Shown: positions 21,194 to 43,912 of the stretch, piece by piece
Numbering within the stretch: the first letter of the stretch is position 1
Layout: every line of letters begins with the position of its first letter
From: Chitinophaga pinensis
GTDB taxonomy: Bacteria > Bacteroidota > Bacteroidia > Chitinophagales > Chitinophagaceae
Assembly (NCBI GenBank): GCA_945865295.1
Contig: CAMBDE010000009.1
Location: forward strand, 1-43,912
DNA length: 43,912 nucleotides
Direction of reading: 5' to 3'
The notes under the pieces: generated by a model
What the model was told of the DNA's origin: nothing
Seen by the model: only the letters and a program-made list of their open reading frames with translations
Databases searched by the model: none
Translations under genes and position numbers: made by a program

Positions 21194-23275
21194 TTATAAA
21201 TTGAATTGTACTAATAAGGAATAAGTGCGTCCCATTGCATAGATGCCTGAGCCATGGGTTTTGTACTTTTCATTCAATAGATTGATACTCCCTAGCTGTA
21301 TAAATACATTTTTAAATTGTTGATTCAAACTAATATTAAATACATTCCAACTAGGTGTTCCATTTGAACCAATTCGGTTATCATCTTTATCTCCCTGTGC
21401 CAAACGATCTTGCTTTCCTGCAAACAAATGCTGTACTAGTATTTGTGTATTATTTTTTTTCCATGCTAATTCTTGTTGGCCAAACAATGGTGGGATACGC
21501 CTCATTGGTTCATTCTTTGTTTCATTTTGACCATAGGTATAGGTTAAATTGCTAGACCATTTTAATTGCTGATTCAATTGCAGCGCAATATTCGTTTCAA
21601 ATCCTTTAATATAAGAAGTATCTGAATTTTGTTTAGAGTAAACTTGGTATCCGTTGATTATACTGCCAGTTACTTTTTGTCTTGTGATGATGTCTTTTAA
21701 ATTTAAATAAAAACCACTTAAATCAAATTGCACCAATTTTGTATTTAATTTATATCCCAATTCATAATGTAATGACTTTTCTGGTTCTAAACTATTACTA
21801 GGTAGCTCATATCTAAAATCAACAATACCTAATGTACCCATATCATCAATATTGGGTGCACGGTAACCAGAAGATAGGGAAGCATATACTAAATTAGTGG
21901 TATTTAATTTATAGGAGATGCCTGCATTTCCAACCAATGCAGAGGGATTTATATTTACTTGTCCTATACTTGTATCTGTTAATTGAATTCCAAAACGATT
22001 ATATCTAAGACCTGCCTCGATATGCCATTTTTTCAAATCTATTTTATGCAAATTAAAAACTGAAAAACTTTTGTAGCTACTATTGTTTGGATACAGTCCT
22101 CTTTTACTCACAGAAATACCTGTAGTTAAATTTTTATCTATAAGTGCACTCTTAATTTTATCTGCATTATAATCTATCCCCGAATTGATTTGCCAATTTT
22201 TTGTAGGATTAGAATACAGGTCAACGCTTGTTCCATTAGAGTTCACTTGGTCTATCTCGTATTTGTAAATGATATTGTTTAATTTATTGCTTTCTCTTTC
22301 CTCATTTGAATATTGGAAAGACTGAGTAACTTTGATTTTAGAAAGGTATTTGGATGATAAGTTTTTTTCCCATTGAATAGACTGGATATTTCTTTCTTGC
22401 TTAGCAATTTTATTTACTTTAAAACTCTCCAATAATACCTTATGGTAAATAGGAACATCTTTTTGTATAAAAAAGCGAGATGAAATGGTTATTTCCCCTG
22501 CTTTGTTCAATTGTATTCTAGCAATGATATTCACCCCTGTTTCATCATATCCACTTGGACTTTGTACACCTACATTTTTTCCTCCAACAAGGTCACCAAA
22601 ATTTCTTAAGGTGATGCCTGATTGTATAGCAAAGTTTTTTTGACTATACTGGACCGCGGCTCTTGCGGTTTTTTCCATGTCTTGTCCTAAATATTTAAGT
22701 GTAGTACTACTGTTCCATGTCTTTTTTTGATTGTACATCGGCCTATAAGAATGCAAATGAATCACCCCGCCAATGGCATCAGAACCATATTCAACAGAGC
22801 CTGTTCCCTTACTTACTTCAATTTGGTTGATGGTATACAAATCGATATTATTTAAATATTGATTGGGTCCATACCTGAATGTGGCATTATTAAGACGGAC
22901 ACCGTCCAACATCAATAAGGTTTGATTGCCTGTTAAACCTCTAATAAATGCAGAGCCTCCGCCATGATTTGTTTTCTGAACAAAAACCCCCGAGCTACCC
23001 ATTAGGGCCTCAGGGGTTGTTCTATAATTCCCAAATTTTATCGAAGCAGCATTTTTTTGAACCAAACTATACGGCAGATTGATCTTGTTTTTTTGAACCA
23101 ACCTGCTTTTTACTTTAATAGAATCTAAAAAAATATAACTCGTATCATTCAAACGGCTTTTATTATTCGCGTTGACCCTGATAACACCATAACTATGACA
23201 AAATAAGAAAGTTAAAATACAAACTAACTTAGTTAATTTTTTCCATTTTAAATGTTGTGTCATCTCCTTCTTCAT
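21194..23275 (-). CDS. TonB-dependent receptor
   Basis: Plug GSSGVFVQKTNHGGGSAFIRGLTGNQTLLMLDGVRLNN; barrel C-terminus. Confidence 0.9.
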   Translation of the reverse strand: MKKEMTQHLKWKKLTKLVCILTFLFCHSYGVIRVNANNKSRLNDTSYIFLDSIKVKSRLVQKNKINLPYSLVQKNAASIKFGNYRTTPEALMGSSGVFVQKTNHGGGSAFIRGLTGNQTLLMLDGVRLNNATFRYGPNQYLNNIDLYTINQIEVSKGTGSVEYGSDAIGGVIHLHSYRPMYNQKKTWNSSTTLKYLGQDMEKTARAAVQYSQKNFAIQSGITLRNFGDLVGGKNVGVQSPSGYDETGVNIIARIQLNKAGEITISSRFFIQKDVPIYHKVLLESFKVNKIAKQERNIQSIQWEKNLSSKYLSKIKVTQSFQYSNEERESNKLNNIIYKYEIDQVNSNGTSVDLYSNPTKNWQINSGIDYNADKIKSALIDKNLTTGISVSKRGLYPNNSSYKSFSVFNLHKIDLKKWHIEAGLRYNRFGIQLTDTSIGQVNINPSALVGNAGISYKLNTTNLVYASLSSGYRAPNIDDMGTLGIVDFRYELPSNSLEPEKSLHYELGYKLNTKLVQFDLSGFYLNLKDIITRQKVTGSIINGYQVYSKQNSDTSYIKGFETNIALQLNQQLKWSSNLTYTYGQNETKNEPMRRIPPLFGQQELAWKKNNTQILVQHLFAGKQDRLAQGDKDDNRIGSNGTPSWNVFNISLNQQFKNVFIQLGSINLLNEKYKTHGSGIYAMGRTYSLLVQFNL

Positions 23276-23366
23276 CTTTTATTAAATTCATTCATCAAAG
23301 AATACAAGCTATTCAAAATCAAACAATTTTTCGTTTTGTTTCTAAATAGAGCATCAATGTTATTAT

Positions 23367-25772
23367 CTAATCAATTATCTTAATAAAAGCACTTCTTTTA
23401 GGTGCTGGCATTTCACTATTGATGCCCTTGATTGCTTTCCAAAGAATTTGATTAAATAACAAGTCTGGCACTTTATCTTCCTTGCTAAAATCTAAACCTT
23501 CGCTCAATTTAGACAAAGCGTCTACTTTGATATTTCTTTCATTGATATCAACCAAAGGACTGATGGCATTAAATGGTGTCTTATTTACTTTCGTATCAAA
23601 TGATCTCCACATTGGTTCTGCTGCTGCATCATATTGACTCATTGGAGGTAAGCCAAGGATCAGCTCCATTGTTCTAAGCATACTCGAAGTAGAATACATG
23701 GTATGATCTACAAACCCTCTTTTAACAAAACCTCCAGCAACATAGGCTGTTGAACGATGCGCATCTACATGGTCTGCGCCGTTTTGAGCATCATCTTCTA
23801 AAATAAAGATGGCTATCTTATCCCAAATTGGATGCTTACTTAAATATTCTACAAATAAACCTACTGCGTAATCATTGTCTGCAACATGCGCAAATGGAGT
23901 TGGTCTTCCTACTCTAGTGCCTTCTGTATGGTCATTGATGAAGCGCATCGTATTTAACGCAGGAACTTGGTTGATGGCATACAAGGAATCAAAATCTCTT
24001 TTCCATTGGTAGAATCTTGATGTGTCTCTTACTTTTTCATCCCAGCTTGTGAAATAAGGACAAAATTTACCTTGTAATGTTGGATAATTTGCTTTGTAGT
24101 CATCTGCAAATTCTCCGTAGGTTCTAAAGCTAACTCTTGCTTTTAATGCATGATCCCATAAAAATCCACCTTTAGGAGAAGCTATATTTTTTTGTCCTTC
24201 ATAATCATAAGTACCTCCACGTCCGCCATAACTAGTAACCCAAGTTTTTTCATTGTAATCGTTCGCATAAGCCCCCATACTCCAACTATGTCCGTCTGCA
24301 CTTACTTCTGCATCTACATAAAAATTATCTAACAACACAAATTGCTCAGCAATAGCGTGTTGATTTGGCGTAATGTTTCTACCAAAAAGCAATAAACTGC
24401 TATCTCCGTTTCCTTGCGGTAAATCACTTAATACTTGATCATAAGTTCTGTTCTCTTTGATCATATAAAATACATGTTTGATAGGAGAGCTATCGCCAAC
24501 ATTTTTCGGGATTGGATTGCCTTGCATACCAGAGGTAGACAATTCTTTATTTTTATTATACGGCGTATTTAAATATACTTGCTTAGTTAAGCTAATTAGT
24601 TCTGCTGTAGTTGGTTCCTTGAATATAGAAAGTGTACCCTTAAATAAACCACCAATATATTCTATTGGCGCTGGCTTCGCTTTAACATCACCAGCTTGGT
24701 AGTTGACTGTTTGTTTTCTTTGAATTGGATTTGGTCCATTTGGATTTGCTTTTGAACTCAATCCTTTACCATTGGTTACAAATAGGGTGTTGCCTACTAT
24801 TTTTAAATTAGTTGGATACCAACCTGTTGGGATAAATCCAATACTTGAGCTAAATCCTTTTTTTGTAACATCAAATACCGCTAAATTATTGTTATCGGCA
24901 TTGGCTACATACAATCTTGATTCAGTTTCATTTAAAGCTAAACCATTAGTGGTTGAGCCATTCGGTGCATTTGCAAATAAAGCACAATTTAAAACTTCTA
25001 CAATATTGAGTGTTTTTGTATCAACTACTGCTACACTATTGTCGTTCGCATTCGCCACATATAAATAGCTTCCGTTTTTAGTTAACAACAATTCATTAGG
25101 ATTATCACCGATGGCTATTTTTTTAGTTGTTTGTTTTGTTTCTGTATTCCAAATTAACAATTGGTCCTTCCCCCATAAAGAAATGTACAATTGTTTTTTA
25201 TCAGCACTAAGTAGACAAGTATATGCTTCACTACCTAAAGGGTAAACAACGAAGTTCTTGGTTGTTAAATTAATTTCATACAAACTATTATTTTCTTTTG
25301 ATACTACATACATTGTGTTTGTTGCATCATTGATACATAATCCTGTTGGTGAAATTCTTACAGGCCACTTTCCTCCTAATTTGATGGAGTCAACTAACTT
25401 TAATTTGTTAGATGCAATTGCATATTTTAAAATCCAATTGTCATTACCACCACTTGCGTATAAAAATTGATTATCTGCACTAAAGCTTAAACCATACCAA
25501 CTTTTAGGAGTTGTTGCATAGTCTAATATTGTTTGTTTTGCAATATCTACTAAGTGGATGCCTTGTGTGCTTTGTCCATTATTGGTGATAGCTGCAAATT
25601 TTTTATTTGGACTTACCACAATATTAAGTGGCAAATCTTCTAATGGCAACTGCTTCCCAATAGGGCTTAATTTCCAATTATTTGGCAAAACGGTTTGTTT
25701 CATTTGAGCAATACTTGTCATAGCCGCAAGCATACTAGCTGCTACACAAATAAGCGTGAATTTCATTTTCAT
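23367..25772 (-). CDS. Secreted YncE-like beta-propeller plus phosphoesterase (PF04185-like) protein, paralog A
   Basis: Propeller YLYVANANDNSVAVVDTKTLNIVEVL; phosphoesterase IKHVFYMIKENRTYDQVL, HVADNDYAVGLFVEYLSKHPIWDKIAIFILEDDAQNGADHVDAHRS. Confidence 0.88.
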   Translation of the reverse strand: MKMKFTLICVAASMLAAMTSIAQMKQTVLPNNWKLSPIGKQLPLEDLPLNIVVSPNKKFAAITNNGQSTQGIHLVDIAKQTILDYATTPKSWYGLSFSADNQFLYASGGNDNWILKYAIASNKLKLVDSIKLGGKWPVRISPTGLCINDATNTMYVVSKENNSLYEINLTTKNFVVYPLGSEAYTCLLSADKKQLYISLWGKDQLLIWNTETKQTTKKIAIGDNPNELLLTKNGSYLYVANANDNSVAVVDTKTLNIVEVLNCALFANAPNGSTTNGLALNETESRLYVANADNNNLAVFDVTKKGFSSSIGFIPTGWYPTNLKIVGNTLFVTNGKGLSSKANPNGPNPIQRKQTVNYQAGDVKAKPAPIEYIGGLFKGTLSIFKEPTTAELISLTKQVYLNTPYNKNKELSTSGMQGNPIPKNVGDSSPIKHVFYMIKENRTYDQVLSDLPQGNGDSSLLLFGRNITPNQHAIAEQFVLLDNFYVDAEVSADGHSWSMGAYANDYNEKTWVTSYGGRGGTYDYEGQKNIASPKGGFLWDHALKARVSFRTYGEFADDYKANYPTLQGKFCPYFTSWDEKVRDTSRFYQWKRDFDSLYAINQVPALNTMRFINDHTEGTRVGRPTPFAHVADNDYAVGLFVEYLSKHPIWDKIAIFILEDDAQNGADHVDAHRSTAYVAGGFVKRGFVDHTMYSTSSMLRTMELILGLPPMSQYDAAAEPMWRSFDTKVNKTPFNAISPLVDINERNIKVDALSKLSEGLDFSKEDKVPDLLFNQILWKAIKGINSEMPAPKRSAFIKIID

Positions 25773-25816
25773 AAACTGCTGATTATTGATTAATAAATTT
25801 AAGGATACATTGAATA

Positions 25817-28519
25817 CTATTGGATAATTGTGCCAGATGTTTTATAATGTTCCGTTCTTTGTTCTTTTTCATTATCCATTGTAGGCCCTTGCTTGATCTT
25901 TTTCCAATCTAAATTATAATTGTATTTTTTCATTGCTTTATCCCAATCAAATACTTCTTGACTAGGGAATTCAAAATAATAAGGACTAAAATCTGGCTCA
26001 TTGGTAAAAAAGTCAGTTAATAATGAAGCGGTTACATCATATTGATTCACATAAGGCACGCCCAATACATTATAGATAACTTTTAAAATAGATCCAAAAT
26101 TGGCATGCGTATTAGAAACATAATTTTTCTTTACATAAGGGCCGGCCATCATTAATACACTTCTGTGTGCATCTATATGGTCTACTCCACCTTGAGGATC
26201 ATCTTCTGTTACAATGACTAACATATCCTTCCAATAAGGCGTTTGACTTAAAAACTGCATCATTCTACCTAATGCCAAATCATTGTCGGCAACATAAGAA
26301 TGCATAAAGGGGTAGCCATCTTCTGGTCTAGGCCCTGCAGTATGGTCATTAGGCAACATCACCGTTAATAATTGCGGCAAGGTATCTTTCCCGTTCAACC
26401 ATTTTTTTGTAAATTCTTCTTCAAACTGTTTCATCCTAAATTGATCTGGAATATTGGTATTGTAACCAGCAAAATTGTGTGATGTTCTTTCCCAAACGCC
26501 TTTTTGCATAGGTACCATTACAATATGTCCTGCACCAGTGGCAGTATCATACCAGTCTTCTCTTACATGCGCTGTTTCGTTGGCTTGTCCAAAATTATAA
26601 TAGCTAATTTTTTTTCTGTCTAAGGCTTCCCATAAGCCTCCAATTTCGGAATAATCTTCTGGGTCCATACTACCCGTTGATCCTGGGAACCTTCTACCAG
26701 ATGCGGTCGAAAAATAATCAGCAGATTTATCTGTACTAGAATTGGCTTCTACCCATTCATTAGGAATTACACCCATCATCCAATGATGTCCATGAATGGA
26801 TGCGTCACTATCACAATAAAAATTATCACTCAACGAAAATTGCTTTGCAATTTTAATATGGTTTGGGGCCACATTTACATGTTTTACATTTTGTGTTTTT
26901 CCATATACATTCACATCTAATCCAAATCTTGCTAATGTTGGATCGCCTTTTACATTTTTCATTTGACCAAATATTTCGTCAAATGTTCTGTTTTCTTTCG
27001 TAATAAATACGACGTGCTTAATAGGACTTATTTTACTACCTGGTAAAACAGGTAATGGCAAACTATCTGTTTGTTCTTTTACAATATAGGTTTGATCCAA
27101 TGTTTGTTTTGTGTAAGCTGCAAGTGTTTTAGGATCTGGATTAGCTACTTCTTGGAATCCACCTAATTGAATATCTCCTACATAGGTTCCTTGTATAGGT
27201 GCTTTGAAATTTTTTCCTCCATTTTGACCAGCTCCTAAACCTCTACAAGAAGTAATGTAAATTTTTTGTTCATCATTAGATAAAGCGACTCTAGTAGTGC
27301 CCCAACCTGTTGGGATTAATCCAATTGTAGTAGAAGTTTTTATATCAATTTTTGCAACTGCATTAAATCCTAATAAGGCCACATACAAAAATTGTTCATC
27401 TTTGGTCATCGTGATACCAAATGGCAATAAGCCTCTATAACGGTCTAATTTAGGATCTACTTTAATAGGGATATGCTTTACAATCTTTCCTTTTTTATAA
27501 TCAATGACTGCGATATTGTCATTAGTCGCATTGGTTACATAAGCATATTTTTCCCCAATTGCAATGGAGTTGGGACTTGCACCTCCAATGACTTCGGCAT
27601 CTTCTACTAGTTCTCCTAATAATAAACCTGTCTTCAATTTTGCTTTTACCTTATTTGAATTTAAATCAATACAGTAAACACTCATAGATTCTTTTGCATT
27701 TGGATCTCCTAACCCTGGTATTACTTTTCCGTCAATCTCGGTGCCTTCAATAGACTCCTTTGTATTGTTACCGTATGGATGCCATCCAATGTATTGTGTT
27801 TTAATATTTTCTTTTGTTGTTCCTCCAACCAAAGGGTAATCATACATACCCACATTCGCAACCAATACCGTTTTTTGATCTGGGGAGATGGCTAAGCCAA
27901 AGGGTTGGCGTCCGGTAGGTATAGAGGCAACAATTTTATTATTAGTAAGACTATAGCGAACCAGTCTAAAATTTCCTCTATCTAAAATCAATAAATTATT
28001 AGAAGCTTCATGGTACACTAAGTCGCTAGTAAAACTGCCAGAGAATTTAGTGCCGTTGAATGTCCCGTCTAACTTAATGGAATCTATTTTTTTAAATTGC
28101 GCATAATCATACACTACAACTGTGCCTTCATCCCCACCACTTAGGTACACTATTTTTTTTGTTGGGTGAAATGCAATACCTAAGAAAGAACCTTTTTTTA
28201 AAGGACTTTCGCTTGCTTTTAAATAATCTGGAACACGCTTAGCTACTTGGGTTTTTAAATCAATAATGGTAAATACATTTTCATGTAAAGTAATTGCCAC
28301 AGAACCGTCTGGGGATATTTTTAAACCAAATGGGTCATGGGTAATTCTTATTGACTTACCTACTGGTTGCACATAACGGCCACTCGGCAAAATAGAAATA
28401 CCTGTAGGATCAATTTTAGCATATTCTTTAAAACCAGGAACCGTTAAAAAACTTTGTTTTGATTGTCCATTTGCCATTAAAATTATAAAATAGCAAATAC
28501 ATGTAAAAAAATATTTCAT
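25817..28519 (-). CDS. Secreted YncE-like beta-propeller plus phosphoesterase protein, paralog B
   Basis: IKHVVFITKENRTFDEIFGQMKNVKGDP, YVADNDLALGRMMQFLSQTPYWKDMLVIVTEDDPQGGVDHIDAHRS. Confidence 0.88.
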   Translation of the reverse strand: MKYFFTCICYFIILMANGQSKQSFLTVPGFKEYAKIDPTGISILPSGRYVQPVGKSIRITHDPFGLKISPDGSVAITLHENVFTIIDLKTQVAKRVPDYLKASESPLKKGSFLGIAFHPTKKIVYLSGGDEGTVVVYDYAQFKKIDSIKLDGTFNGTKFSGSFTSDLVYHEASNNLLILDRGNFRLVRYSLTNNKIVASIPTGRQPFGLAISPDQKTVLVANVGMYDYPLVGGTTKENIKTQYIGWHPYGNNTKESIEGTEIDGKVIPGLGDPNAKESMSVYCIDLNSNKVKAKLKTGLLLGELVEDAEVIGGASPNSIAIGEKYAYVTNATNDNIAVIDYKKGKIVKHIPIKVDPKLDRYRGLLPFGITMTKDEQFLYVALLGFNAVAKIDIKTSTTIGLIPTGWGTTRVALSNDEQKIYITSCRGLGAGQNGGKNFKAPIQGTYVGDIQLGGFQEVANPDPKTLAAYTKQTLDQTYIVKEQTDSLPLPVLPGSKISPIKHVVFITKENRTFDEIFGQMKNVKGDPTLARFGLDVNVYGKTQNVKHVNVAPNHIKIAKQFSLSDNFYCDSDASIHGHHWMMGVIPNEWVEANSSTDKSADYFSTASGRRFPGSTGSMDPEDYSEIGGLWEALDRKKISYYNFGQANETAHVREDWYDTATGAGHIVMVPMQKGVWERTSHNFAGYNTNIPDQFRMKQFEEEFTKKWLNGKDTLPQLLTVMLPNDHTAGPRPEDGYPFMHSYVADNDLALGRMMQFLSQTPYWKDMLVIVTEDDPQGGVDHIDAHRSVLMMAGPYVKKNYVSNTHANFGSILKVIYNVLGVPYVNQYDVTASLLTDFFTNEPDFSPYYFEFPSQEVFDWDKAMKKYNYNLDWKKIKQGPTMDNEKEQRTEHYKTSGTIIQ

Positions 28520-28602: not shown

Positions 28603-28699
28603 TATTTTTTTTAATAGAGTTTATACCCGTTAACAATTTCGAAACAATTCCTTAATCTATTGTTCACATCAACTTTCAATTTTGTTAAAGGTTTCACAA

Positions 28700-28707
28700 T
28701 AGGTTTG
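28700..28707 (+). promoter_or_regulatory. Putative -7 element TAGGTTTG for susC
   Basis: Identical octamer to the divergent promoter, 18 nt before ATG 28726. Confidence 0.4.
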
Positions 28708-28725
28708 CAATTCAAAATATTAAAT

Positions 28726-31700
28726 ATGATTTCAAAACAACGATGTATTAAGTGGGTTCTTACGCCACTTATGTTATTGGGATTGAGTTTAAGCTCAATT
28801 GCACAAAACGTACAATTTAAAGGAAAAGTGGTAGATGCAGAAACTAAAAAAGCTTTAGAATCTGCTACTGTGTCTGTAAAAGGACAAGCCACAAAAACAG
28901 ATGCGAACGGTACTTTCAGTTTAAGTAACTTAAACGCGAATGCTGCTGTTACAGTTTCTTACATTGGTTATGTTACTAAAACTGTGACTGCTTCCAACGA
29001 TGCAGTTGTTGTTGAATTAGTAAAAGCCGATGAGTTATTAAACGAAGTGGTTGTTACCGCTTTGGGTATCAAAAAAGAGAAAAGAAAAATCGGATATGCT
29101 ACACAAGAAGTAAAGGGCGCTGATTTAGTAAAAGCTAGAGAATTGAATCCTATCAACAACTTAGTAGGTAAAGTAGCTGGTTTGACAGTGGGTATTAACC
29201 AAGAAATGTTAAGACTCCCTAACTTAGTATTAAGAGGTGGACGTGTGAATTTGATTGTAGTGGATGGTGTGCCAATTAACTCTGATACTTGGAATATTAG
29301 CCCAGACGATATCGAATCCTATAACGTGTTAAAAGGCCCTGTTGCCTCTGCATTGTATGGTTATAGAGGTCAAAATGGAGCGATCATCATCAACACTAAA
29401 AAAGGTACAAAAGATAAAAGAGGTTACTCTGTTGAATTCAACAGCAGTACTGCCGTTCAAAGCGGTTTCATTGCCTTACCAAAAACTCAAGATGAGTACG
29501 GTCCTGGTGACCACGGTAGATATGCATTCGTAGATGGTTTAGGCGGTGGTTTAAACGATGCGGATTATGATGTTTGGGGACCAAAATTTGAAGGTCAATT
29601 GATTCCTCAGTACGATAGTCCAGTAGATCCAATCACAGGTAAGCGTTCTGGAACACCATGGATTGCTCGTGGTAAAGACAACTTAAAGCGTTTTATCGAG
29701 CCAGGTGTGTTAAATACAACTAACCTTGCAATTGCTTCTTCTACAGAAAAAACAGATTTACGTTTTTCTATAGGCAATACCTACAATAAAGGTATCTTAC
29801 CAAACACAAGTTTAAACACAACGAATTTAAACTTAGCAGGTACATTAAGATTCAACTCTAAATTAACTTTAGATGCGAATATTAATTTCAACAAACAATA
29901 TTCTGATAATTTCCCAGACGTAAACTACGGTCCTAACTCTGTAATTTACAACATTACTATTTGGGGTGGTGCTGATTGGAGTATGGATGATATGAGAAAT
30001 TACTGGCAGCCAGGTAAAGAAGGTGTACAAAGTATCTATGCGGAATACCAAAGATACCATAACCCTTACTTTATGGCTTATGAGTGGACTAGAGGTCATT
30101 ACAAAAATGATATCTATGCTTATACGACTTTAGATTATAAAGTAAATAAGTATATAGATTTATTCGCAAGAACTTCAGTTACAACTTATGATTTAATGCG
30201 TAACGAGAAAATGCCTTTTTCTGCGCACCCTTATGGTAGAGAGGAAAATAAAGGTGACTACAGAGAAGACAGAAGATCTTTATTTGAATCTAACTCTGAA
30301 TTCCGTGCTAATTTCAAAACACCTGAGTTAGCTAATTTCTTTAACATTTCAGGTTTTGCAGGTGCGAACTACAGACAATTTAATTACAATTCAAGTTTTG
30401 TAACTACAAACTACTTAAACGTTCCGAATGTATACACTTTTGCAAACAGTAGAAATCCAGTGATTGCTTACAATTTTGCATCTGAAATGAGGGTTAAATC
30501 ATTATTATATTCAGTAGATATTGAAGCAAGTAAATATGCTAATTTGAATATCACAGGCCGTAATGACCAATTGTCTGCATTGAATAAAGACAATAATTCA
30601 TTCTTCTATCCTTCTTTCAACTTAAGCACTGTTTTGAATGATTATATCGACATGCCAAAGCAAATTAACTTCTTCAAATTAAGAGGTTCTTATGCAAAAG
30701 TAAGAGGTGGTGGAAACTTTGTATCTGACTACATTGGTTCTACACCAAATAATGCTTTCCCTCTTGGTTATGGTGAGCAATACGCTTCAACTTATGGTGG
30801 ACCTACTTATACTTATGCCGATGTATATTCTACAGGTATTGGTTATAATAACACAACACAAGCCGGTTTCACAAATACATTAGTAGACAACAATGTTCAG
30901 CCTGATGATAGATCAAGTCTTGAATTTGGTTTAGAAACAAGATTCATCAACAACCGTTTTGGTTTAGAAGCGAGTTATTTTAGCTACACTGATGGACCTC
31001 AAATTTTCTCTAAATCAATTTCTCAAACATCTGGTTTCGGTTCTTATGTAATCAATGGTACTAAAACTAAAAGAACTGGTTACGATGTAAGTTTGAATGC
31101 AGTGATTTTGAAAAAAGCAAACGGTTTAAACTGGGATGCGACATTCAACATTGGTTCTTTCATTAACAAGTATATTGAACTTCCAGCTGGTATATCAGCA
31201 TTAAATACTTTCTACACAGTGGGTACAAGAACAGATGCGGTATATATCAGAAAATTTGCTAGAACACAAGAAGGTCAAATCATCAATGATGCTGGTGGTC
31301 GTCCAGTGATTTTACCAGTAGCACAATTTGCAGGATATTCTAATCCTAAATTTGTTTGGGGTTTAAATAATAAATTCAGTTACAAAGCATTTACTTTAAA
31401 CATGCAAGTAGATGGTCGCGTAGGTGGTATTATGGAAGATTATGTTAGAAAAAAGACATTCCAAGGTGGTCGTCACATAGAGACTGTTCAAGGTGCAATG
31501 GGTGTAGCTAGATACCAAGATTACTTAGGCGTAAAAGCTTATGTAGGTGAAGGTGTTCAAGTTACTTCTGGAACTCCAAAGTTTGATGCGGTTACTGGTT
31601 TAATTACGAACTATAGCAGTTTAACTTTTGCTCCAAACGCCACTAAGACTTTCATTCAAGATTATATTAGCCGTGTACATGGTATTCCTGAACCAAATAT

Positions 31701-31944
31701 GATGAGTAAAACATTCTTTAAATTAAGAGAAGTAGTTTTAACTTATGAGCTTCCAGCAAGTTTGGTACAAAAATCTTTCTTTAAGAAAGCGACAATCTCT
31801 GCAGTGGGTAGAAACTTATTGTACTGGATGCCAGATTCTAAATTTAATGATGTTGATATTGATCAGTATCCTGGTGAGTCTTCTATAGGATTACAAACAC
31901 CAACTACAAGATCTTACGGTATCAATATTAATTTCACATTTTAA
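28726..31944 (+). CDS. SusC/RagA family TonB-linked outer membrane protein
   Basis: ORF extends from 28660; likely start MISKQRCIKW at 28726; CarboxypepD_reg-like domain, NEVVVTALGIKKEKRKIGYATQEV, plug LVLRGGRVNLIVVDGVPIN. Confidence 0.93.
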   Translation: MISKQRCIKWVLTPLMLLGLSLSSIAQNVQFKGKVVDAETKKALESATVSVKGQATKTDANGTFSLSNLNANAAVTVSYIGYVTKTVTASNDAVVVELVKADELLNEVVVTALGIKKEKRKIGYATQEVKGADLVKARELNPINNLVGKVAGLTVGINQEMLRLPNLVLRGGRVNLIVVDGVPINSDTWNISPDDIESYNVLKGPVASALYGYRGQNGAIIINTKKGTKDKRGYSVEFNSSTAVQSGFIALPKTQDEYGPGDHGRYAFVDGLGGGLNDADYDVWGPKFEGQLIPQYDSPVDPITGKRSGTPWIARGKDNLKRFIEPGVLNTTNLAIASSTEKTDLRFSIGNTYNKGILPNTSLNTTNLNLAGTLRFNSKLTLDANINFNKQYSDNFPDVNYGPNSVIYNITIWGGADWSMDDMRNYWQPGKEGVQSIYAEYQRYHNPYFMAYEWTRGHYKNDIYAYTTLDYKVNKYIDLFARTSVTTYDLMRNEKMPFSAHPYGREENKGDYREDRRSLFESNSEFRANFKTPELANFFNISGFAGANYRQFNYNSSFVTTNYLNVPNVYTFANSRNPVIAYNFASEMRVKSLLYSVDIEASKYANLNITGRNDQLSALNKDNNSFFYPSFNLSTVLNDYIDMPKQINFFKLRGSYAKVRGGGNFVSDYIGSTPNNAFPLGYGEQYASTYGGPTYTYADVYSTGIGYNNTTQAGFTNTLVDNNVQPDDRSSLEFGLETRFINNRFGLEASYFSYTDGPQIFSKSISQTSGFGSYVINGTKTKRTGYDVSLNAVILKKANGLNWDATFNIGSFINKYIELPAGISALNTFYTVGTRTDAVYIRKFARTQEGQIINDAGGRPVILPVAQFAGYSNPKFVWGLNNKFSYKAFTLNMQVDGRVGGIMEDYVRKKTFQGGRHIETVQGAMGVARYQDYLGVKAYVGEGVQVTSGTPKFDAVTGLITNYSSLTFAPNATKTFIQDYISRVHGIPEPNMMSKTFFKLREVVLTYELPASLVQKSFFKKATISAVGRNLLYWMPDSKFNDVDIDQYPGESSIGLQTPTTRSYGININFTF

Positions 31945-31964
31945 TTAAAAGAAACACATAAGAT

Positions 31965-33524
31965 ATGAAAAAGATATTTCAAATACTAAGTTTAGGATTG
32001 GTATTAAGTTCAATGACCGCTTGTAAAAAGTCATTCGATTCTTTAGCCTCAGATCCTAATAGAGCCACAGCGGTTCCTGCGAATTTAATTTTAAATAATG
32101 TGCTTCTTGAATACAACGAAGGCGCGTTTAATTTAACACAAAGATGGAATCAATATTACGTTTGTAATTATGATTATTATGGAAACCAAGAGTACAACTG
32201 GACTGGTTTTTCATACAATAATTACAATGTATTAAAGAACATCCAAAAGATGGAAGACGAAGCAAAGAAGTCTGTATCAGCACCAAATCCTTATACAGCG
32301 CTTGCTAAGTACTTAAAAGCTTTTTTCTTGTATGACTTAACAATGAACTTAGGTGATATCCCGGTTTCTGAAGCCCTTAAAGGTTTAGGAAATATTACAC
32401 CTAAGTATGATACACAAAAACAAGTTTTCCAACAAATCTTGACTTATTTAGAAGAAGCAAATACAGAAATGGGTACTTTAAAGACGACTAACTATGTATT
32501 AGCGAATGATTTTTACTACGGTAACAACTTGTCTAAGTGGCAAAAAGTGGTGAATGCTTTCAAATTGAGAGTATTGATCCAATTGAGCATGAAAGAAGCG
32601 GATACCGATTTAGCGATCAAAACAAAATTTGCTGAAGTAATCAACAATCCTACTAAATATCCTTTATTTAGCAGTGACGATGATAATTTAGCTTTTACTT
32701 ACAATAGCCAGTACAACAAGTATTCTACAAATCCGGATAATTTTGGTTTTGATGCAACGCGTTACAATATGTCTTCTACTTATTTAGGTAACTTAACAAC
32801 TTTGAAAGATCCTAGAACTTTCTTCGTTGCTGAGCCAGCTGCTGCATTAGTGGCTGCAGGTAAAGCACCTAATTCTTACGATGCATTTATGGGTGCTGGT
32901 TCTGGAGAAGATTTAGCGACAATGAGTTCAAACGCTGGTTTAGGTAAGTATTCATTTATCAACCGTAAGCGTTATTATCAAACTTATACTGCTGAAAAAA
33001 CAACTCAAGTTGGTTACCAAGAAATGTGTTTCAATATTGCAGAAGCAGTAAACAGAGGTTGGATTTCAACTCAAAACGCAGAAACTTGGTACCAAAATGG
33101 TATCAAAGCTTCTCAAGCTTTCTATGGTGTGAAAGAAGGTGCTAACACGGTTATTTTCCAAAAACCAGGTGGTACTTTAGCGGAGTCAGTAACATATAGT
33201 GTTGACTTTAGCTACGATACTTATTATGCACAATCAACAGTTAAATATGCTGGTAATAATGCAGATGGTTTAAAGCAAATTTTGTTACAAAAGTATTTAG
33301 CAATGTACCAAAACAGCGGTTTCGAAGGTTATTATAACTGGAGAAGAACAGGTGTACCAACTTTCCATACAGGTGCAGGTTCTGGTAATAGCCAAAGAGT
33401 TGCATTACGTTTCCAATATCCAAGTGCAGAAAGAATTAACAATAAAACAAACTTGGAAGCTGCTATTAGTTCTCAATATGGTGGCACAGACGATATCAAT
33501 GCAAAAATGTGGATCATCAAATAA
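31965..33524 (+). CDS. SusD/RagB-like outer membrane lipoprotein
   Basis: Lipobox SSMTAC; SusD-like sequence; directly after susC. Confidence 0.9.
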   Translation: MKKIFQILSLGLVLSSMTACKKSFDSLASDPNRATAVPANLILNNVLLEYNEGAFNLTQRWNQYYVCNYDYYGNQEYNWTGFSYNNYNVLKNIQKMEDEAKKSVSAPNPYTALAKYLKAFFLYDLTMNLGDIPVSEALKGLGNITPKYDTQKQVFQQILTYLEEANTEMGTLKTTNYVLANDFYYGNNLSKWQKVVNAFKLRVLIQLSMKEADTDLAIKTKFAEVINNPTKYPLFSSDDDNLAFTYNSQYNKYSTNPDNFGFDATRYNMSSTYLGNLTTLKDPRTFFVAEPAAALVAAGKAPNSYDAFMGAGSGEDLATMSSNAGLGKYSFINRKRYYQTYTAEKTTQVGYQEMCFNIAEAVNRGWISTQNAETWYQNGIKASQAFYGVKEGANTVIFQKPGGTLAESVTYSVDFSYDTYYAQSTVKYAGNNADGLKQILLQKYLAMYQNSGFEGYYNWRRTGVPTFHTGAGSGNSQRVALRFQYPSAERINNKTNLEAAISSQYGGTDDINAKMWIIK

Positions 33525-33559: not shown

Positions 33560-33595
33560 GGAAGGGCAGGTTTTACCTGCTCTTCCTTATTTTTG
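33560..33595 (+). terminator. Intrinsic terminator after susD, T-tract overlaps a TAnnTTTG element
   Basis: GGAAGGGCAGGT-TTT-ACCTGCTCTTCC then TTATTTTTG; TATTTTTG at 33588-33595. Confidence 0.75.
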
Positions 33596-33603: not shown

Positions 33604-34872
33604 ATGACGCAACCAAAAAAGTTTCAAGCTTTTCTATTGACTGTGTATATCGCAGCCATTTGCTTTTTAACTTATGCCTGTGTCTATGCATTTAGAAAGC
33701 CATTTACAATTGGATTGTATTTTAATGAGCCAAAAATATTTGGAGTTGATTATAAAAATATACTTGTCATTGCACAAGTGATTGGCTATACCATTAGTAA
33801 GTTCTGTGGTATTAAATACATTTCTGAATTAAAAAATATCGGAAGAGGCTGGGCTATTTTATTCTTATTGCTTCTGTCATGGATTCCTTTATTATTATTC
33901 CCACTTATTGATAGCCCTTGGAATGTGACGATGCTTTTCTTAAATGGTTTACCATTAGGGGTACTTTGGGGATTGATCTTTTCATTTGTGGAGGGTCGAA
34001 AATCAACTGATTTTATAGGGGCCGCAATGGCTGTAAGTTTCATTGTTTCTTCGGGCTTTGTTAAGTCTGTTGGAAAATGGTTACAAATGCAATACCTGAT
34101 TGCAGAAAATTGGATTCCATTTTATACAGGCGCTATTTTTATTATTCCTATTATTATTTTAGTGTATTTATTAGAAAAAATCCCCAACCCTACTCATGAG
34201 GAAAGGGTCAATAAATCTATCCGAGTGCCATTGGACAGGCGTGACCGTAAGCGTTTTTTCACGCAGTTTAGTTTTGGACTCATTTCTTTTATAATTATTT
34301 ACATGTTTTTGTCTTTATTTAGAGATATAAGAGACAATTTCGCGGCCGAGCTTTGGAACGAATTAGGCTATGGCAATTCCGCTTCAATTTTTACATCTTC
34401 TGAAATTCTAATTGCAATTTGTGTGTTGATCATGATTGCAAGTATGATTTATATTAAAAATAATAAGCTTGCTTTTTTCTTAGCGCAAACAATTATTTTA
34501 TTTGGCTTTTTTATCTGTGGACTAAGTACGCTATTATTTTTGAATCAATATATATCCGGCTATAGCTGGATTGTATTGGTTGGCCTTGGCTTGTATATGG
34601 GTTATATCCCATTTAATTCAATTCTATTTGATCGCATGATTGCTAGTTATAAATTAAAAGCCAATGTGGGCTATTTTATGTATTTAGTGGATGCATTTGG
34701 CTATGTTGCTAGTGCAGGAGTGATTATACTAAAAGGCACAATGGATGTGAATTTAAGCTGGACAACATTTTTTAGCAACGGCTTAGTTGTTCTATCTTTA
34801 GTGGGCATCCTTTTTAGTATTTTAAATATGATTTATTTTTCAAAAAAATATAAAACAATACAATATGAGTAA
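33604..34872 (+). CDS. DUF5690-like MFS-type membrane protein, possible organophosphonate/organophosphate transporter
   Basis: About 12 TM helices; N-terminal FLTYACVYAFRKPFTIGLYF recalls the OPA-family N-terminus; overlaps next gene by 8 nt. Confidence 0.75.
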   Translation: MTQPKKFQAFLLTVYIAAICFLTYACVYAFRKPFTIGLYFNEPKIFGVDYKNILVIAQVIGYTISKFCGIKYISELKNIGRGWAILFLLLLSWIPLLLFPLIDSPWNVTMLFLNGLPLGVLWGLIFSFVEGRKSTDFIGAAMAVSFIVSSGFVKSVGKWLQMQYLIAENWIPFYTGAIFIIPIIILVYLLEKIPNPTHEERVNKSIRVPLDRRDRKRFFTQFSFGLISFIIIYMFLSLFRDIRDNFAAELWNELGYGNSASIFTSSEILIAICVLIMIASMIYIKNNKLAFFLAQTIILFGFFICGLSTLLFLNQYISGYSWIVLVGLGLYMGYIPFNSILFDRMIASYKLKANVGYFMYLVDAFGYVASAGVIILKGTMDVNLSWTTFFSNGLVVLSLVGILFSILNMIYFSKKYKTIQYE

Positions 34873-35989
34873 GTCGGCAATTGTAGTTGGTGCTGGAATA
34901 GTTGGCCTAGCAACTGCTAGAGCATTGGCAGAAAAAGGTTATGAGGTTAAAGTGATTGAGAAGTCTCAATTTGCATTGGGTGCTAGCGTAAGAAATTTTG
35001 GTATGCTTTGGCCAGTAGGTCAGCCCGATGGTCATTTGTACGATAGATCTGTGAGAACAAAAGAAATTTGGGTTGACTATTTAGATGCTGCAGGTATACC
35101 TTACAATGCTTGCGGAAGCTTGCATTTAGCATACAGCAAAGAGGAGATGCATGTGGTAGAAGATATTTGTCAGTTTTTTCAGTCTAAAAATAGACCTGTT
35201 TCAGTAATTGACAAAGAGACTGTATTGGCAAACTATAATGGGATCAATGAAAACGGATTATTGGGAGCCTTAAGAAGTGAAGACGAAATCATCATTGATC
35301 CAAGAGAGGGCATCAAGCATTTACCTGCTTATTTAACCCAAAAATATGGCGTTTCATTTATTTGGGGTACGGCTATCACCAGTGTTACAAGTCATGCTGC
35401 TTTTGCAGGTAAAACGAAATATGCTGCCGATATCGTTTGTGTTTGTTCTGGCCAAGATTTTGAGATCTTGTATCCGGATCAATTTAAAGCGCAACCAATT
35501 ATCAAGACCAAATTACAAATGATGCGCTTCAAGCACAAAGATCCAAATTTTAACATTGGTGCTTCAGTTTGTGGCGGCTTATCTTTATTACATTATAAAA
35601 GTTTTACCGCTTCGTCCGCTTTGACCAAATTAAGATTAAAGATAGAAGAAGAAATTCCAGAGTATTTAAAATATGGCATTCATGTGATGGTGTCTCAAAA
35701 TAATCAAGGCGAATTAACAGTGGGAGATTCACATGAATACGCTTTAGATTTTGAACCATTTGATAAAACCGAGATCAATGACATGATTCTTGCTTATTTA
35801 AAAAAGTTAATGCACATAGATCAATGGGAAATGACACAATCTTGGAATGGTATTTATCCAATTATGACTAACGGTGCTGCAGAATTATTCTTAAATCCAG
35901 AACCAGGAGTGTATATTTTAAATGGGATTGGTGGACACGGAATGACAATGTCATTTGGATTTGCAGAAGAAATGATTGAAACTATTTAA
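34865..35989 (+). CDS. FAD-dependent oxidoreductase, DAO superfamily (TIGR03364-like)
   Basis: AIVVGAGIVGLATARALAEKGYEVKVIEKSQFALGASVRNFGMLWPVGQP; C-term GIGGHGMTMSFGFAE. Confidence 0.87.
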   Translation: MSKSAIVVGAGIVGLATARALAEKGYEVKVIEKSQFALGASVRNFGMLWPVGQPDGHLYDRSVRTKEIWVDYLDAAGIPYNACGSLHLAYSKEEMHVVEDICQFFQSKNRPVSVIDKETVLANYNGINENGLLGALRSEDEIIIDPREGIKHLPAYLTQKYGVSFIWGTAITSVTSHAAFAGKTKYAADIVCVCSGQDFEILYPDQFKAQPIIKTKLQMMRFKHKDPNFNIGASVCGGLSLLHYKSFTASSALTKLRLKIEEEIPEYLKYGIHVMVSQNNQGELTVGDSHEYALDFEPFDKTEINDMILAYLKKLMHIDQWEMTQSWNGIYPIMTNGAAELFLNPEPGVYILNGIGGHGMTMSFGFAEEMIETI

Positions 35990-36008
35990 TATTTTAAAAG
36001 AACATACT

Positions 36009-36557
36009 ATGAATCATCCGATCGTATCAGAAATCCTTACTTTATTCAAAACCAATGGTGGTTCTATGTATGGCGGAGAAGCTGTAACACAATTAGAACA
36101 TGCATTACAAGCTGCTACATTAGCAAAAGAAAATCAAGCTTCAGATGCATTGATTACTGCCGCATTATTACACGATATTGGGCATTTGTTAAACGATTTA
36201 CCAGACGATGCCAGTGACAAGGGGATTGACGATGTACACGAAGTATTGGCGGCAAACTATCTAGCTGCACATTTTGTACCAGCAGTGGTAGAACCTGTTA
36301 ATTTACATGTGGCTGCAAAAAGGTATTTATGTGCAGTTGATCCTGCCTATTATGATACCTTATCTGCGCCTTCTAAAACAAGTTTAAATTTTCAGGGTGG
36401 TGTCATGAATGAGTTGGAAGTAGCTCATTTTGAGCAAAATCCTTTTTATAAAGATGCTGTTACACTAAGACAATGGGATGATATTGCAAAAGATCCAGCA
36501 ATGAAAACAGAGGCAATAGATTTTTTTGCTTCAGCTATTCAAAACAGTTTAAAATAA
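36009..36557 (+). CDS. PhnZ-like HD-domain phosphonate oxygenase
   Basis: Likely start MNHPIV at 36009; MYGGEAVTQLEHAL, LLHDIGH, LHVAAKRYL, LSAPSKTSLNFQGGVM, RQWDD match the PhnZ pattern. Confidence 0.88.
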   Translation: MNHPIVSEILTLFKTNGGSMYGGEAVTQLEHALQAATLAKENQASDALITAALLHDIGHLLNDLPDDASDKGIDDVHEVLAANYLAAHFVPAVVEPVNLHVAAKRYLCAVDPAYYDTLSAPSKTSLNFQGGVMNELEVAHFEQNPFYKDAVTLRQWDDIAKDPAMKTEAIDFFASAIQNSLK

Positions 36558-36562
36558 AACCT

Positions 36563-37240
36563 ATGCAAATTCAATGCCTCGTTTTTGATATGGCGGGTAC
36601 AACCGTAAATGAAGACAATATTGTGTATAAAACTTTACAGGCTGCTTTAAATCATTTTAATGTTCCTGTAGATTTAAATCATGTTTTATTGCATGGTGCT
36701 GGTAAGGAAAAATTCCAAGCCATTAAAGATATCATCTCTAACAGTCCATATACATTAAATGAAACAGAACAATTAGAAGCCTTTAATTATTTTTTAGCGC
36801 AATTAGATATTGCTTATACCAATTTTGATGTAACGCCAATGCCAGGTGCTGAGTATGTATTTGCTGCCCTAAAACAATTAGGTATAAAAGTAGTTTTAAA
36901 CACAGGGTACAATAGAGCCACTGCAGAAAATCTATTAGGTAAATTAGGATGGGCAGAAGGGTATCAAATTGATTTATTGGTGACTGCATCAGATGTCTTA
37001 CACAATCGTCCAATGCCTGATATGATTCTATATGCAAAAAATAAATTGCAAATAGTTAATACAAATCAAATGGTTAAAATTGGAGATTCTTGTATTGATA
37101 TTGAAGAAGGTAAAAATGCAGGTTGTTTATTGAATATAGGTATTACGACAGGTGCACAAACCGAAACACAATTAATGGAAGCAAAGCCAGATTATATTGT
37201 ACATAGTTTGACAGCTTTGTTAGACATTCTACCAAAGTAG
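36563..37240 (+). CDS. PhnX-like (phosphonatase-like) HAD hydrolase
   Basis: FDMAGTTV (DxAGT motif), HNRPMPDM (Arg in place of usual HAD Lys), KIGDSCIDIEEGKNAG. Confidence 0.85.
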   Translation: MQIQCLVFDMAGTTVNEDNIVYKTLQAALNHFNVPVDLNHVLLHGAGKEKFQAIKDIISNSPYTLNETEQLEAFNYFLAQLDIAYTNFDVTPMPGAEYVFAALKQLGIKVVLNTGYNRATAENLLGKLGWAEGYQIDLLVTASDVLHNRPMPDMILYAKNKLQIVNTNQMVKIGDSCIDIEEGKNAGCLLNIGITTGAQTETQLMEAKPDYIVHSLTALLDILPK

Positions 37241-37243: not shown

Positions 37244-38344
37244 TTAATTAAAACGGTAGTGTAATAAAACGTCTTGATCAATAAGCTTCGTTTCAATTAA
37301 AGACAATTGCACTTTCTTATCTAATCCACGGATTGCATCCAAGCCAAGCATTGGAAGCCCATTCAAATCATTTAAAATAGCAGGGGCTATAAACCAATAC
37401 AATTCATCTGCCATGTTTTGTTGGATCATACTTGAATTCAATTGGCTTCCGGCTTCTGTTAAAATTTTATAATATCCTAGTTCAAGTAATTTTTCCGAGA
37501 TGGATGAAAATACAAGCCCTTGCTCATTAAATGTTCCAATGATGTAGTCCATATTTTCTGGTAATTGAATACTTGGAGGATTGGCGGTAATAAAAATAAT
37601 TTTTGTAACTGAACGCAGATAAAAAATAGGCAAATTTTCATATTGCTTTTCAAGCAGCTCAAGATTTCTATCAATCAGAATCACATTGGTTTCTTGAATG
37701 GCTCCTGCTGTGTTTCTAATGGTTAAACTTGCTTGATCCTGAATAACTGTTTTATAGGATGTCATGATCGCATCCACATTTGCTCTTAAATGATCGTGCA
37801 CAAATTGTCTTGATGCTGCACTGCTAATCCACTGGCTATTTTTTTCGTGGTCTGCAATTTTCCCGTCAATGGTGGATGCTAATTTTAAAATATAGTGCGG
37901 TCGATTTTTCAATTGATTGGTAAAAAATCGAGCGTTTAATAAGGTAGCTGATACATCATCTACCACTTCAACCTCAATACCATGTTCTATTAATTTTGCA
38001 ACACTTGCTACTTTAGGATTGGGGTCTAAACTCGCTATAACTACTTTTTTGATTTTATGTTGAATGATTAAATCTACACAAGGGGGTGTTTTGCCAAAAT
38101 GAGAACAGGGCTCCAAACTAACATACATAGTAGCTTGACCGAGGTCGGCTGTTTTTTCTAGGGCTTGCTCTATGGCATTGACCTCGGCATGGGGTCCCCC
38201 TATTTTTTGATGGTATCCTTCCCCAATAAGCTGACCCTCATGGTCTATAATAATTGCACCTACAAAAGGATTTGGACGAATTTGGTTTTCGTCGGCTTTT
38301 TCAGCCAAATTTATAGTGTAATCTATTGCCTCCTTCTGCGTCAT
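37244..38344 (-). CDS. ribD: Bifunctional riboflavin deaminase/reductase RibD
   Basis: PNPFVGAIIIDHEGQLIGEGYHQKIGGPHAEVNA, YVSLEPCSHFGKTPPC. Confidence 0.92.
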   Translation of the reverse strand: MTQKEAIDYTINLAEKADENQIRPNPFVGAIIIDHEGQLIGEGYHQKIGGPHAEVNAIEQALEKTADLGQATMYVSLEPCSHFGKTPPCVDLIIQHKIKKVVIASLDPNPKVASVAKLIEHGIEVEVVDDVSATLLNARFFTNQLKNRPHYILKLASTIDGKIADHEKNSQWISSAASRQFVHDHLRANVDAIMTSYKTVIQDQASLTIRNTAGAIQETNVILIDRNLELLEKQYENLPIFYLRSVTKIIFITANPPSIQLPENMDYIIGTFNEQGLVFSSISEKLLELGYYKILTEAGSQLNSSMIQQNMADELYWFIAPAILNDLNGLPMLGLDAIRGLDKKVQLSLIETKLIDQDVLLHYRFN

Positions 38345-38350
38345 AAGGGT

Positions 38351-38358
38351 TATCTTTG
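38351..38358 (+). promoter_or_regulatory. Putative -7 element TATCTTTG for ribE-ribBA-ribH
   Basis: Matches TAnnTTTG in the short ribD/ribE divergent gap. Confidence 0.35.
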
Positions 38359-38386
38359 CAGCTCAAAATTACTCAAACTATCGCAT

Positions 38387-38980
38387 ATGTTTACAGGCAT
38401 TGTACAGAAAGGGAAAATACATGCAATTTCTTCAACAGAAGATGGATGGGAACTAGCAATCAATATGGCAAATTTTGCTGCCATTGTTCAAATAGGAGAT
38501 AGCGTAGCAATAGATGGTGCTTGCCTAACTGTAACTAAAGTGGTGGATGATAATATGTATTTTTTTGTTTCTACAGAATCGATTGCAAAAACAATCATCA
38601 GAAATTATAAGACAGGGGATGTTGTAAATACAGAACTACCAATGCAGCCAAATGGCTACCTAGGGGGTCATTATGTATTAGGTCATGTGGATGCGACAGC
38701 TATAGTCAATGAAATCAAAATCACGCCTACTGCTTGGTTTTTAACCATTCAAGTGCCTGAACAATTTGTAAAATATATTGTTTATAAAGGGTCTATTGCA
38801 ATCAATGGAGTAAGTCTAACAATCAATGAGGTGCGTGATCAGCTGATTGATCTTTGTATTATTCCAACCACCTTAGACAAGACCAATATCAATCAACTTT
38901 CTGTTGAAAGTATTGTCAATATTGAATTTGATATTTTAGCAAAATATACAGAACAGTTACTTCTAAAAAGAAATGTGTAA
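38387..38980 (+). CDS. ribE: Riboflavin synthase alpha chain
   Basis: Start MFTGIVQKG at 38387 inside the longer ORF; LGGHYVLGHVD, KGSIAINGVSLTINEV. Confidence 0.92.
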   Translation: MFTGIVQKGKIHAISSTEDGWELAINMANFAAIVQIGDSVAIDGACLTVTKVVDDNMYFFVSTESIAKTIIRNYKTGDVVNTELPMQPNGYLGGHYVLGHVDATAIVNEIKITPTAWFLTIQVPEQFVKYIVYKGSIAINGVSLTINEVRDQLIDLCIIPTTLDKTNINQLSVESIVNIEFDILAKYTEQLLLKRNV

Positions 38981-40245: not shown

Positions 40246-40246
40246 T

Positions 40247-40660
40247 ATGATCGCCATTATCAAAGCAAATTTCAATGCAACTATCACAGATTTATTACTA
40301 GCTGGGTGCACCGATGAATTGGATGCTAAAAACCAAGCATATAAAGTCTTTGAATGCGCTGGCGCTATTGAAACAGTAGTATTTGCCAATCGTGTTATTG
40401 AAACAAATCAATACGATTGTGTGGTGGTGATTGGTGCAATTATAAAAGGGGATACAGACCATTACGAATATGTTTGTCAATACGTTACCCAAGGCTTTTC
40501 AACCATTGCAGCAACAAAAACGACACCTGTTATTTTTGGTATTTTAACCACTCAGAATGAAGCTTTGGCTTATGAAAGAGCGGCAATTGATAAGATGAAT
40601 AAAGGTCAAGAATTTGCAGTAACAGCCATGGAGATGATCCAATCTTTTAAATCTTTGTAG
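40247..40660 (+). CDS. ribH: 6,7-dimethyl-8-ribityllumazine synthase (short form)
   Basis: Start at ATG 40247 right after ribBA stop; GAIIKGDTDHYEYV, FGILTTQNEALAYERA. Confidence 0.88.
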   Translation: MIAIIKANFNATITDLLLAGCTDELDAKNQAYKVFECAGAIETVVFANRVIETNQYDCVVVIGAIIKGDTDHYEYVCQYVTQGFSTIAATKTTPVIFGILTTQNEALAYERAAIDKMNKGQEFAVTAMEMIQSFKSL

Positions 40661-40702
40661 TCGAAATCTAGTTAGTCTAGTTGCTTATTTTTCTTTCAAG
40701 AA

Positions 40703-41578: not shown

Positions 41579-41584
41579 TGTATG

Positions 41585-43699: not shown

Positions 43700-43789
43700 G
43701 GACTTGCTTAACAAAAAGTTAATATTAAAATAATACATAGCGAACAATTTGTTTATACAGATAAACGTATTTTGTTTAAACAAGCCCTC

Positions 43790-43912
43790 ATGAACAAACG
43801 CCCATTGGATGTATGTGTAATTAGTGATATTCATTTAGGTACATTTGGCTGTCAAGCACATGAAGTTCTTAATTACTTAAAAAGTATCGAGCCAAAGACC
43901 CTTATTTTAAAC
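43790..43912 (+). CDS. LpxH-like UDP-2,3-diacylglucosamine diphosphatase/metallophosphoesterase, 5' partial
   Basis: MNKRPLDVCVISDIHLGTFGCQAHEVLNYLKSIEPKTLILN runs off the window; not in ORF track because no stop. Confidence 0.8.
   Translation, partial: MNKRPLDVCVISDIHLGTFGCQAHEVLNYLKSIEPKTLILN

Follow-up and report, generated by a model that had tools for sequence, protein, structure and literature searches.

A SusC/SusD-associated candidate aminophosphonate utilisation locus with two putative carbon-phosphorus cleaving branches in Chitinophaga pinensis

How might a bacterium degrade phosphonates when its genome holds neither PhnW, nor PhnY*, nor a carbon-phosphorus (C-P) lyase? The question is raised by a stretch of 43,912 nt from Chitinophaga pinensis (assembly GCA_945865295.1, contig CAMBDE010000009.1, positions 1-43,912, forward strand), here called the window, in which four neighbouring genes encode a DUF5690 membrane protein, a flavin (FAD) enzyme, an HD-domain oxygenase and a HAD hydrolase. 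A first-pass annotation had taken these for a self-contained operon of phosphonate catabolism. We found that phosphonate catabolism is supported as the role, but that the operon is not self-contained, as the four genes form the inner part of a larger SusC/SusD locus. Our reading, to which we give a probability of about 0.74, is that the locus serves the use of aminophosphonates, with surface capture joined to two C-P cleaving branches. The genome is 2.0 Mb in size with 94.8% completeness and 5.2% contamination. The coordinates and spacing of the four open reading frames (33604-37240; an 8-nt overlap followed by gaps of 19 nt and 5 nt) were confirmed as follows.

33604..34872, + strand: DUF5690 membrane protein, candidate phosphonate permease (PF18943, major facilitator superfamily fold)
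34865..35989, + strand: FAD amine oxidase of PbfD/HpnW type (TIGR03364), with the 8-nt overlap with the DUF5690 gene
36009..36557 (ATG start), + strand: HD diiron oxygenase of PhnZ/TmpB type, also called PhnHD (TIGR03276), after the 19-nt gap from the FAD gene; an alternative TTG start lies at 35976
36563..37240, + strand: PhnX-like HAD hydrolase (best match TIGR03351), after the 5-nt gap from the HD gene

The FAD protein gave 392.2 bits with TIGR03364, over the curated cut-off of 285.1, and matched PF01266 as well. It may be noted that Acinetobacter PbfD1 bears the same TIGR03364 annotation, that PbfD enzymes convert N-methyl-2-aminoethylphosphonate (N-methyl-AEP) and 2-aminoethylphosphonate (AEP) to phosphonoacetaldehyde and can stand in for PhnW, and that such an enzyme has been proposed as a PhnW replacement in M. 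fucicola (PMC10590968). A search of the whole genome of the window yielded no PhnW (the matches were weak aminotransferase paralogues, none above 41.5 bits, where the cut-off is 400.8), no PhnJ of C-P lyase and no phosphoenolpyruvate mutase; a phosphonate biosynthesis locus was rejected on the last of these. The absence of PhnW, PhnY* and C-P lyase, which had been claimed from the window, thus extends to the genome. A set of 79 loci (the window and 78 others) was compared, and in five of them (L046, L069, L071, L103 and L115) the FAD and HAD genes are absent and PhnW, PhnA, a phosphonoacetaldehyde dehydrogenase and another PF01266 oxidoreductase are present instead, in an unchanged frame of SusC/SusD and HD genes. 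Representatives scored 470.5 for PhnW (cut-off 400.8), 509.4 for PhnA (cut-off 407.6) and 672 for the dehydrogenase (cut-off 635.7), and TIGR03364 is absent from all five genomes. This swap gives independent support for the FAD and HAD pair making and cleaving phosphonoacetaldehyde, and together with the family biochemistry it upholds the proposal that the FAD enzyme substitutes for PhnW in feeding the HAD enzyme.

Distant TIGR03364 paralogues (28-32% identity) also occur with no other phosphonate gene in L122, L127, L134, L139 and L162-L164, where they sit 3′ of large genes whose products measure about 980, 430 and 1220 amino acids. Also a TIGR03366-like alcohol dehydrogenase is present in L070 (7831-8949, just below cut-off), L099 (8059-9153), L170 (6556-7614) and L193, and perhaps feeds 2-hydroxyethylphosphonate into the pathway.

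For the HAD protein, an alignment of 30 relatives showed D9, G12, T13, K50, R149, D175 and D179 to be invariant and A11 nearly so, so that both the DxAGT motif (D9-A11-G12-T13) and the lysine position of the cap domain for the Schiff base (K50) are kept. In PhnX the Schiff base is formed by K53. The HAD profile aligns over its full length with the PhnX structures 2iof and 1rql, K50 falling on the lysine of their GLLK motif, and it matches PhnX at 1.7e-35 as compared to 1.3e-15 for the best HAD phosphatase not named a phosphonoacetaldehyde hydrolase. Lys53 of PhnX is named in PMC11203657. A literature search for TIGR03351 together with phosphonate found no papers.

The HD protein scored 226.8 bits with TIGR03276 (curated cut-off 214.6) and aligns from end to end with its nearest solved structures, TmpB (6npa, 1.5e-33) and PhnZ (4mlm, 1.9e-27). 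Aligning 26 relatives showed no variation in the diiron ligands H31, H55, D56, H77, H100 and D157, in the Y21/E24 pair of the YxxE loop or in the substrate lysine K104, and hardly any in H59. The ligand motif and the YxxE loop are the marks of PhnZ and TmpB (PMC8177086), and the assignment of this protein as a PhnZ-type diiron oxygenase therefore stands. A PhnY* partner encoded elsewhere in the genome was rejected as a candidate, since no PhyH protein (PF05721) was found there. PhyH paralogues are present in 73 of 80 HD-carrying genomes, and none among the matches listed lies near the HD gene.

The DUF5690 protein matched PF18943 with 492.6 bits (cut-off 25). An AlphaFold2 model made on three DUF5690 sequences (predicted local distance difference test score 78, predicted template-modelling score 0.76) has the fold of the major facilitator superfamily (MFS), and all its Foldseek matches are MFS transporters, including GLUT, NorA and sialin, with human SLC37 glucose-6-phosphate transporters recurring among the first 30 matches at 16-18% identity. 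A profile of 40 DUF5690 sequences compared by local hhalign with a profile of GlpT, UhpT and UhpC aligned over 281 columns with a score of 39.8 and an E-value of 2.8e-4 for this one comparison, the probability being only 41%. With single sequences the E-value was 4.9e-4 for UhpT, but GlpT (0.058) and UhpC (0.038) did not stand out from nine other E. coli MFS proteins used as controls (0.03-0.64). A three-sequence control profile gave 0.077, and the reversed profile of the organophosphate:phosphate antiporters (OPA) gave 0.59. R31 and R240, invariant in all 40 sequences, align opposite R45 and R269 of GlpT, which are its phosphate-binding arginines. These comparisons of sequence are suggestive of DUF5690 being a distant relative of the GlpT/UhpT-type antiporters. 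The DUF5690 sequence profile found nothing useful in the PDB and NCBIfam, with no solved relative by sequence, and no paper in the library that was searched names the domain.

Upstream of the four genes we found further members of the set, so a locus limited to 33604-37240 was rejected: a SusC/SusD pair (28660-33524) and a divergent unit of two phosphoesterases and a TonB receptor (21194-28519) both recur with the gene set elsewhere. The flanking features are given below.

28660..31944, + strand: SusC-type TonB-dependent outer-membrane transporter (TIGR04056, 390.9 bits, cut-off 368.3); the true start is likely near 28726
31965..33524, + strand: SusD-type surface lipoprotein (PF12771, 215.1 bits), with a lipobox in the sequence
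33560..33586, + strand: strong terminator-like hairpin between the SusD and DUF5690 genes, with a 12-bp stem and a T-rich tail
25817..28519, - strand: PE1, secreted fusion of a beta-propeller and a PF04185 phosphoesterase (acid phosphatase 2d1g, 4.6e-5)
23367..25772, - strand: PE2, second beta-propeller and PF04185 phosphoesterase, in the same sequence cluster as PE1
21194..23275, - strand: TonB-dependent receptor, hemin-receptor-like (TIGR01785, 165.8 bits, below the cut-off of 316.9), the outermost gene of the divergent unit

Over 299 genomes of the window's family, HD was found in 83 and TIGR03364 in 96, with both in 73 (Fisher p 9e-38, relatedness uncorrected), and in 69 of these 73 the two genes are at most 6 kb apart. 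The association recurs in dozens of genomes and is therefore not due to chance. Outside the family, HD was found in 10 genomes of a 398-genome sample of the phylum, with one or more further genes of the set close by in all ten. Among the 79 compared loci the gene clusters were counted as DUF5690 in 74, HD in 72 (an uninformative frequency, because the loci were picked by HD presence), SusD in 69, FAD in 68, SusC in 65, and HAD and an alkaline-phosphatase-like protein in 57 each; open reading frame picking undercounts some clusters. Homologues of the phosphoesterases are present in 19 of these loci, and in divergent orientation in L177 and L193; the TonB receptor is present in 10 of these loci and in L177. 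The usual order in the family is XRE-cupin regulator, SusC, SusD, phosphoesterase, HD, HAD, DUF5690 and FAD, where the phosphoesterase is an alkaline-phosphatase-superfamily or PF04185 protein and some loci have, at this point, a protein of metallo-beta-lactamase fold or a TonB receptor.

Taken as a pathway, SusC/SusD and the TonB receptor would import molecules containing phosphonate through the outer membrane, and the secreted phosphoesterases PE1 and PE2 may release phosphonates from esters or lipids. DUF5690 could then move the freed phosphonate on into the cytoplasm, perhaps in exchange for phosphate, going by its distant similarity to GlpT/UhpT and the conserved phosphate-binding arginines. 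The FAD enzyme is predicted to deaminate AEP and/or N-methyl-AEP oxidatively to phosphonoacetaldehyde, as demonstrated for family members elsewhere, and the HAD enzyme, whose catalytic residues are in place, would split this into acetaldehyde and phosphate. The HD oxygenase would form an independent second branch, in which an alpha-hydroxylated phosphonate enters the cell as such and has its C-P bond broken, since without PhnY* in the genome the HD substrate must be imported; the most likely one would be (R)-1-hydroxy-2-aminoethylphosphonate (1-hydroxy-AEP), yielding glycine and phosphate. The two branches are separable, as HD is kept without FAD and HAD in the PhnW/PhnA loci, and HAD-DUF5690-FAD is kept without HD in L120 and L126.

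Several points weigh against such a system. The HAD protein scores under both curated cut-offs (206.7 against 218.9 for TIGR03351 and 101.4 against 220 for TIGR01422), so it is phosphonatase-like and not a formal family member by score; its relatives from L170 and L072 likewise fall just under the TIGR03351 cut-off (215.2 and 210.8). The HD oxygenase has no hydroxylase partner in the genome, and the roles of HpnW and PhnHD are called an unsolved conundrum in PMC11203657. The roles given to the phosphoesterases and the TonB receptor are based on co-location. Also a second DUF5690 copy, 44% identical, lies among housekeeping genes of the same genome (G000:C23:23900-25045; L041 3873-5159), and the DUF5690 family is thus not specific to phosphonates. 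In the hidden Markov model comparison by which HD and HAD might have been placed outside the phosphonate families, HD was over its cut-off, and HAD was below the cut-offs with phosphonatase-like families as its nearest matches. We nevertheless consider it very improbable that HAD is just a phosphatase of the ordinary kind or has some relative of phosphonoacetaldehyde as its substrate: the low scores and the divergence of window-type HADs from those of most family operons (about 29-37% identity) would suit it, but DxAGT, K50 and R149 are kept and the PhnX profile match is far better than that of the best HAD phosphatase not named a phosphonoacetaldehyde hydrolase.

It is also improbable, though somewhat less so, that FAD, HD and HAD form one stream, in which the FAD enzyme would take 1-hydroxy-AEP or some other hydroxylated aminophosphonate as its substrate, or would make the HD substrate. 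The three genes are contiguous in the window, L169, L170, L177 and L193, as a serial pathway would have it; yet HD is retained where PhnW, PhnA and the dehydrogenase replace the other two, HAD-DUF5690-FAD persist where HD is missing, and the substrates of the tested PbfD enzymes are AEP and N-methyl-AEP (PMC10590968). Within the two-branch architecture the HD substrate could instead be hydroxymethylphosphonate or N-methylated 1-hydroxy-AEP, which we regard as a minority option with a real chance. The scores of HD on the models for TmpB (182.9) and for hydroxymethylphosphonate dioxygenase (180.2) are almost the same, phmmer put it nearer to TmpB (119.6 bits) than to PhnZ (99.7 bits), and in the HD tree TmpB adjoins the window's clade; against this, both model scores are far below the cut-offs of 300, and the AEP context favours 1-hydroxy-AEP. 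A sugar or lipid-head transporter unrelated to phosphonates, carried in the locus as a passenger, is a doubtful identity for DUF5690, rated slightly below the alternative HD substrates. The copy among housekeeping genes, the spread of Foldseek matches over many MFS families, the want of a solved relative by sequence and the control-level values of single GlpT and UhpC would be expected of a passenger, whereas DUF5690 adjoins FAD in most family loci, adjoins HD and FAD in a planctomycete, accompanies PhnA/PhnW/PbfC-like genes (L069, L071 and L115), and matches the GlpT/UhpT/UhpC profile.

The two-branch aminophosphonate system is not new in its enzymes. The gene combination had been put forward as noteworthy, but PbfD with PhnX and no PhnW was published in 2023 and Achromobacter hpnW-phnX-phnHD in 2024. 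The PbfD2-PhnX pathway (Zangelmi et al. 2023, PMC10590968) likewise joins a PbfD-type FAD oxidase to a phosphonoacetaldehyde hydrolase without PhnW; the window adds the HD oxygenase, DUF5690, SusC/SusD and phosphoesterases, and its HAD is PhnX-like rather than a clear PhnX. The main text of that paper mentions neither Bacteroid* nor TIGR03351. The Achromobacter hpnW-phnSXUT-lysR-phnHD cluster (Epiktetov et al. 2024, PMC11203657) has the FAD enzyme HpnW, a phosphonatase and the TIGR03276 protein PhnHD; as in the window, neither phnW in the cluster nor PhnY* is present. It differs in having an ATP-binding cassette (ABC) transporter and LysR where the window has SusC/SusD and DUF5690, and in that those Achromobacter genomes carry phnW elsewhere in the chromosome as well as C-P lyase, both absent from the window's genome. 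The PhnY*/PhnZ and TmpA/TmpB pathways share the HD diiron oxygenase with its metal ligands and YxxE loop, but have the hydroxylase partner that the window's genome lacks. In the PusCD systems of Flavobacterium (Lidbury et al. 2020, PMC8115612), SusC/SusD lie beside phosphoesterases and phosphonate-degrading enzymes, and the window similarly has SusC/SusD co-located with phosphorus-releasing enzymes; unlike the window, no TIGR03364/TIGR03276/DUF5690 set is named in the passages of that paper that were consulted. AepP, the GlpT-like 2-AEP permease of Pseudomonas (PMC8316502), is also an MFS transporter; it imports AEP and keeps the phosphate-binding residues of GlpT, whereas DUF5690 is a separate Pfam family of distant similarity to GlpT.

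The known core is therefore the enzyme trio. To it the present analysis adds the setting in a SusC/SusD locus, the conservation of that setting, the swap of pathways and the proposed transporter role of DUF5690; capture genes and transporter make it a distinct and widely conserved version of the trio. A bolder version, for which we see even odds, would make DUF5690 a new distant OPA branch importing aminophosphonates and, with SusC/SusD, the TonB receptor and the secreted phosphoesterases, part of a phosphonate (possibly phosphonolipid) system of Bacteroidota that is complete from the surface to the cytosol. In such a system the PhnW/PhnA and FAD/PhnX-like routes would be modules that can replace each other, and the PhnZ-type oxygenase, an orphan, would act on a hydroxyphosphonate with an import of its own. 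The locus gives a domain of unknown function a testable role and ties an outer-membrane capture system to two candidate enzymes of C-P cleavage, in a phylum that seldom comes up in work on phosphonates. Also the natural swaps (FAD and HAD against PhnW, PhnA and dehydrogenase; HD present or absent) allow direct comparisons on the published question of the role of TIGR03276 oxygenases where PhnY* is missing.

The layout of the window is shared within the genus by L177, where a TonB receptor and a phosphoesterase are divergent from SusC-SusD-DUF5690-FAD-HD-HAD, and by L193, which has a similar set plus the alcohol dehydrogenase; L209 and L210 carry SusC-SusD-FAD-HD-HAD. The HD of the window is 60-85% identical to these window-type relatives in the genus, about 54% to that of the planctomycete L171 (DUF5690-HD-FAD) and 51-53% to those of Pseudanabaena (L172 and L173), as compared to about 34-42% for most usual-operon HDs of the family (up to 47%, over partial length, for some congeners). 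In trees the window's HD and HAD stand apart from most family operons and its DUF5690 and SusD group with them, SusD together with that of a congener's phosphonate locus (L042). The simplest reading of these trees and identities is that HD-HAD may have been replaced in place from another lineage, which would make the locus a mosaic. In Pseudanabaena the enzyme trio lies beside a complete 2-AEP ABC transporter (TIGR03261/03265/03262, three subunits over cut-off), which speaks for the aminophosphonate reading.

An XRE-cupin regulator is present 5′ of SusC in many relatives (e.g. L062 2717-3286), and none was seen beside the window's SusC; between SusD and the phosphatase, a metallo-beta-lactamase-fold protein with no Pfam match occurs in L068 (7317-8621) and nine other loci. 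A promoter scan gave no excess over shuffles. Hairpins comparable to that at 33560-33586 follow SusD in L176, L193, L042, L044 and L106, and perhaps set the expression of SusC/SusD above that of the enzymes. Directly downstream (37244-43834) lie ribD/ribE/ribBA/ribH and ppx/ppk; these riboflavin and polyphosphate genes were rejected as parts of the locus, as nad genes intervene in the close relative L169.

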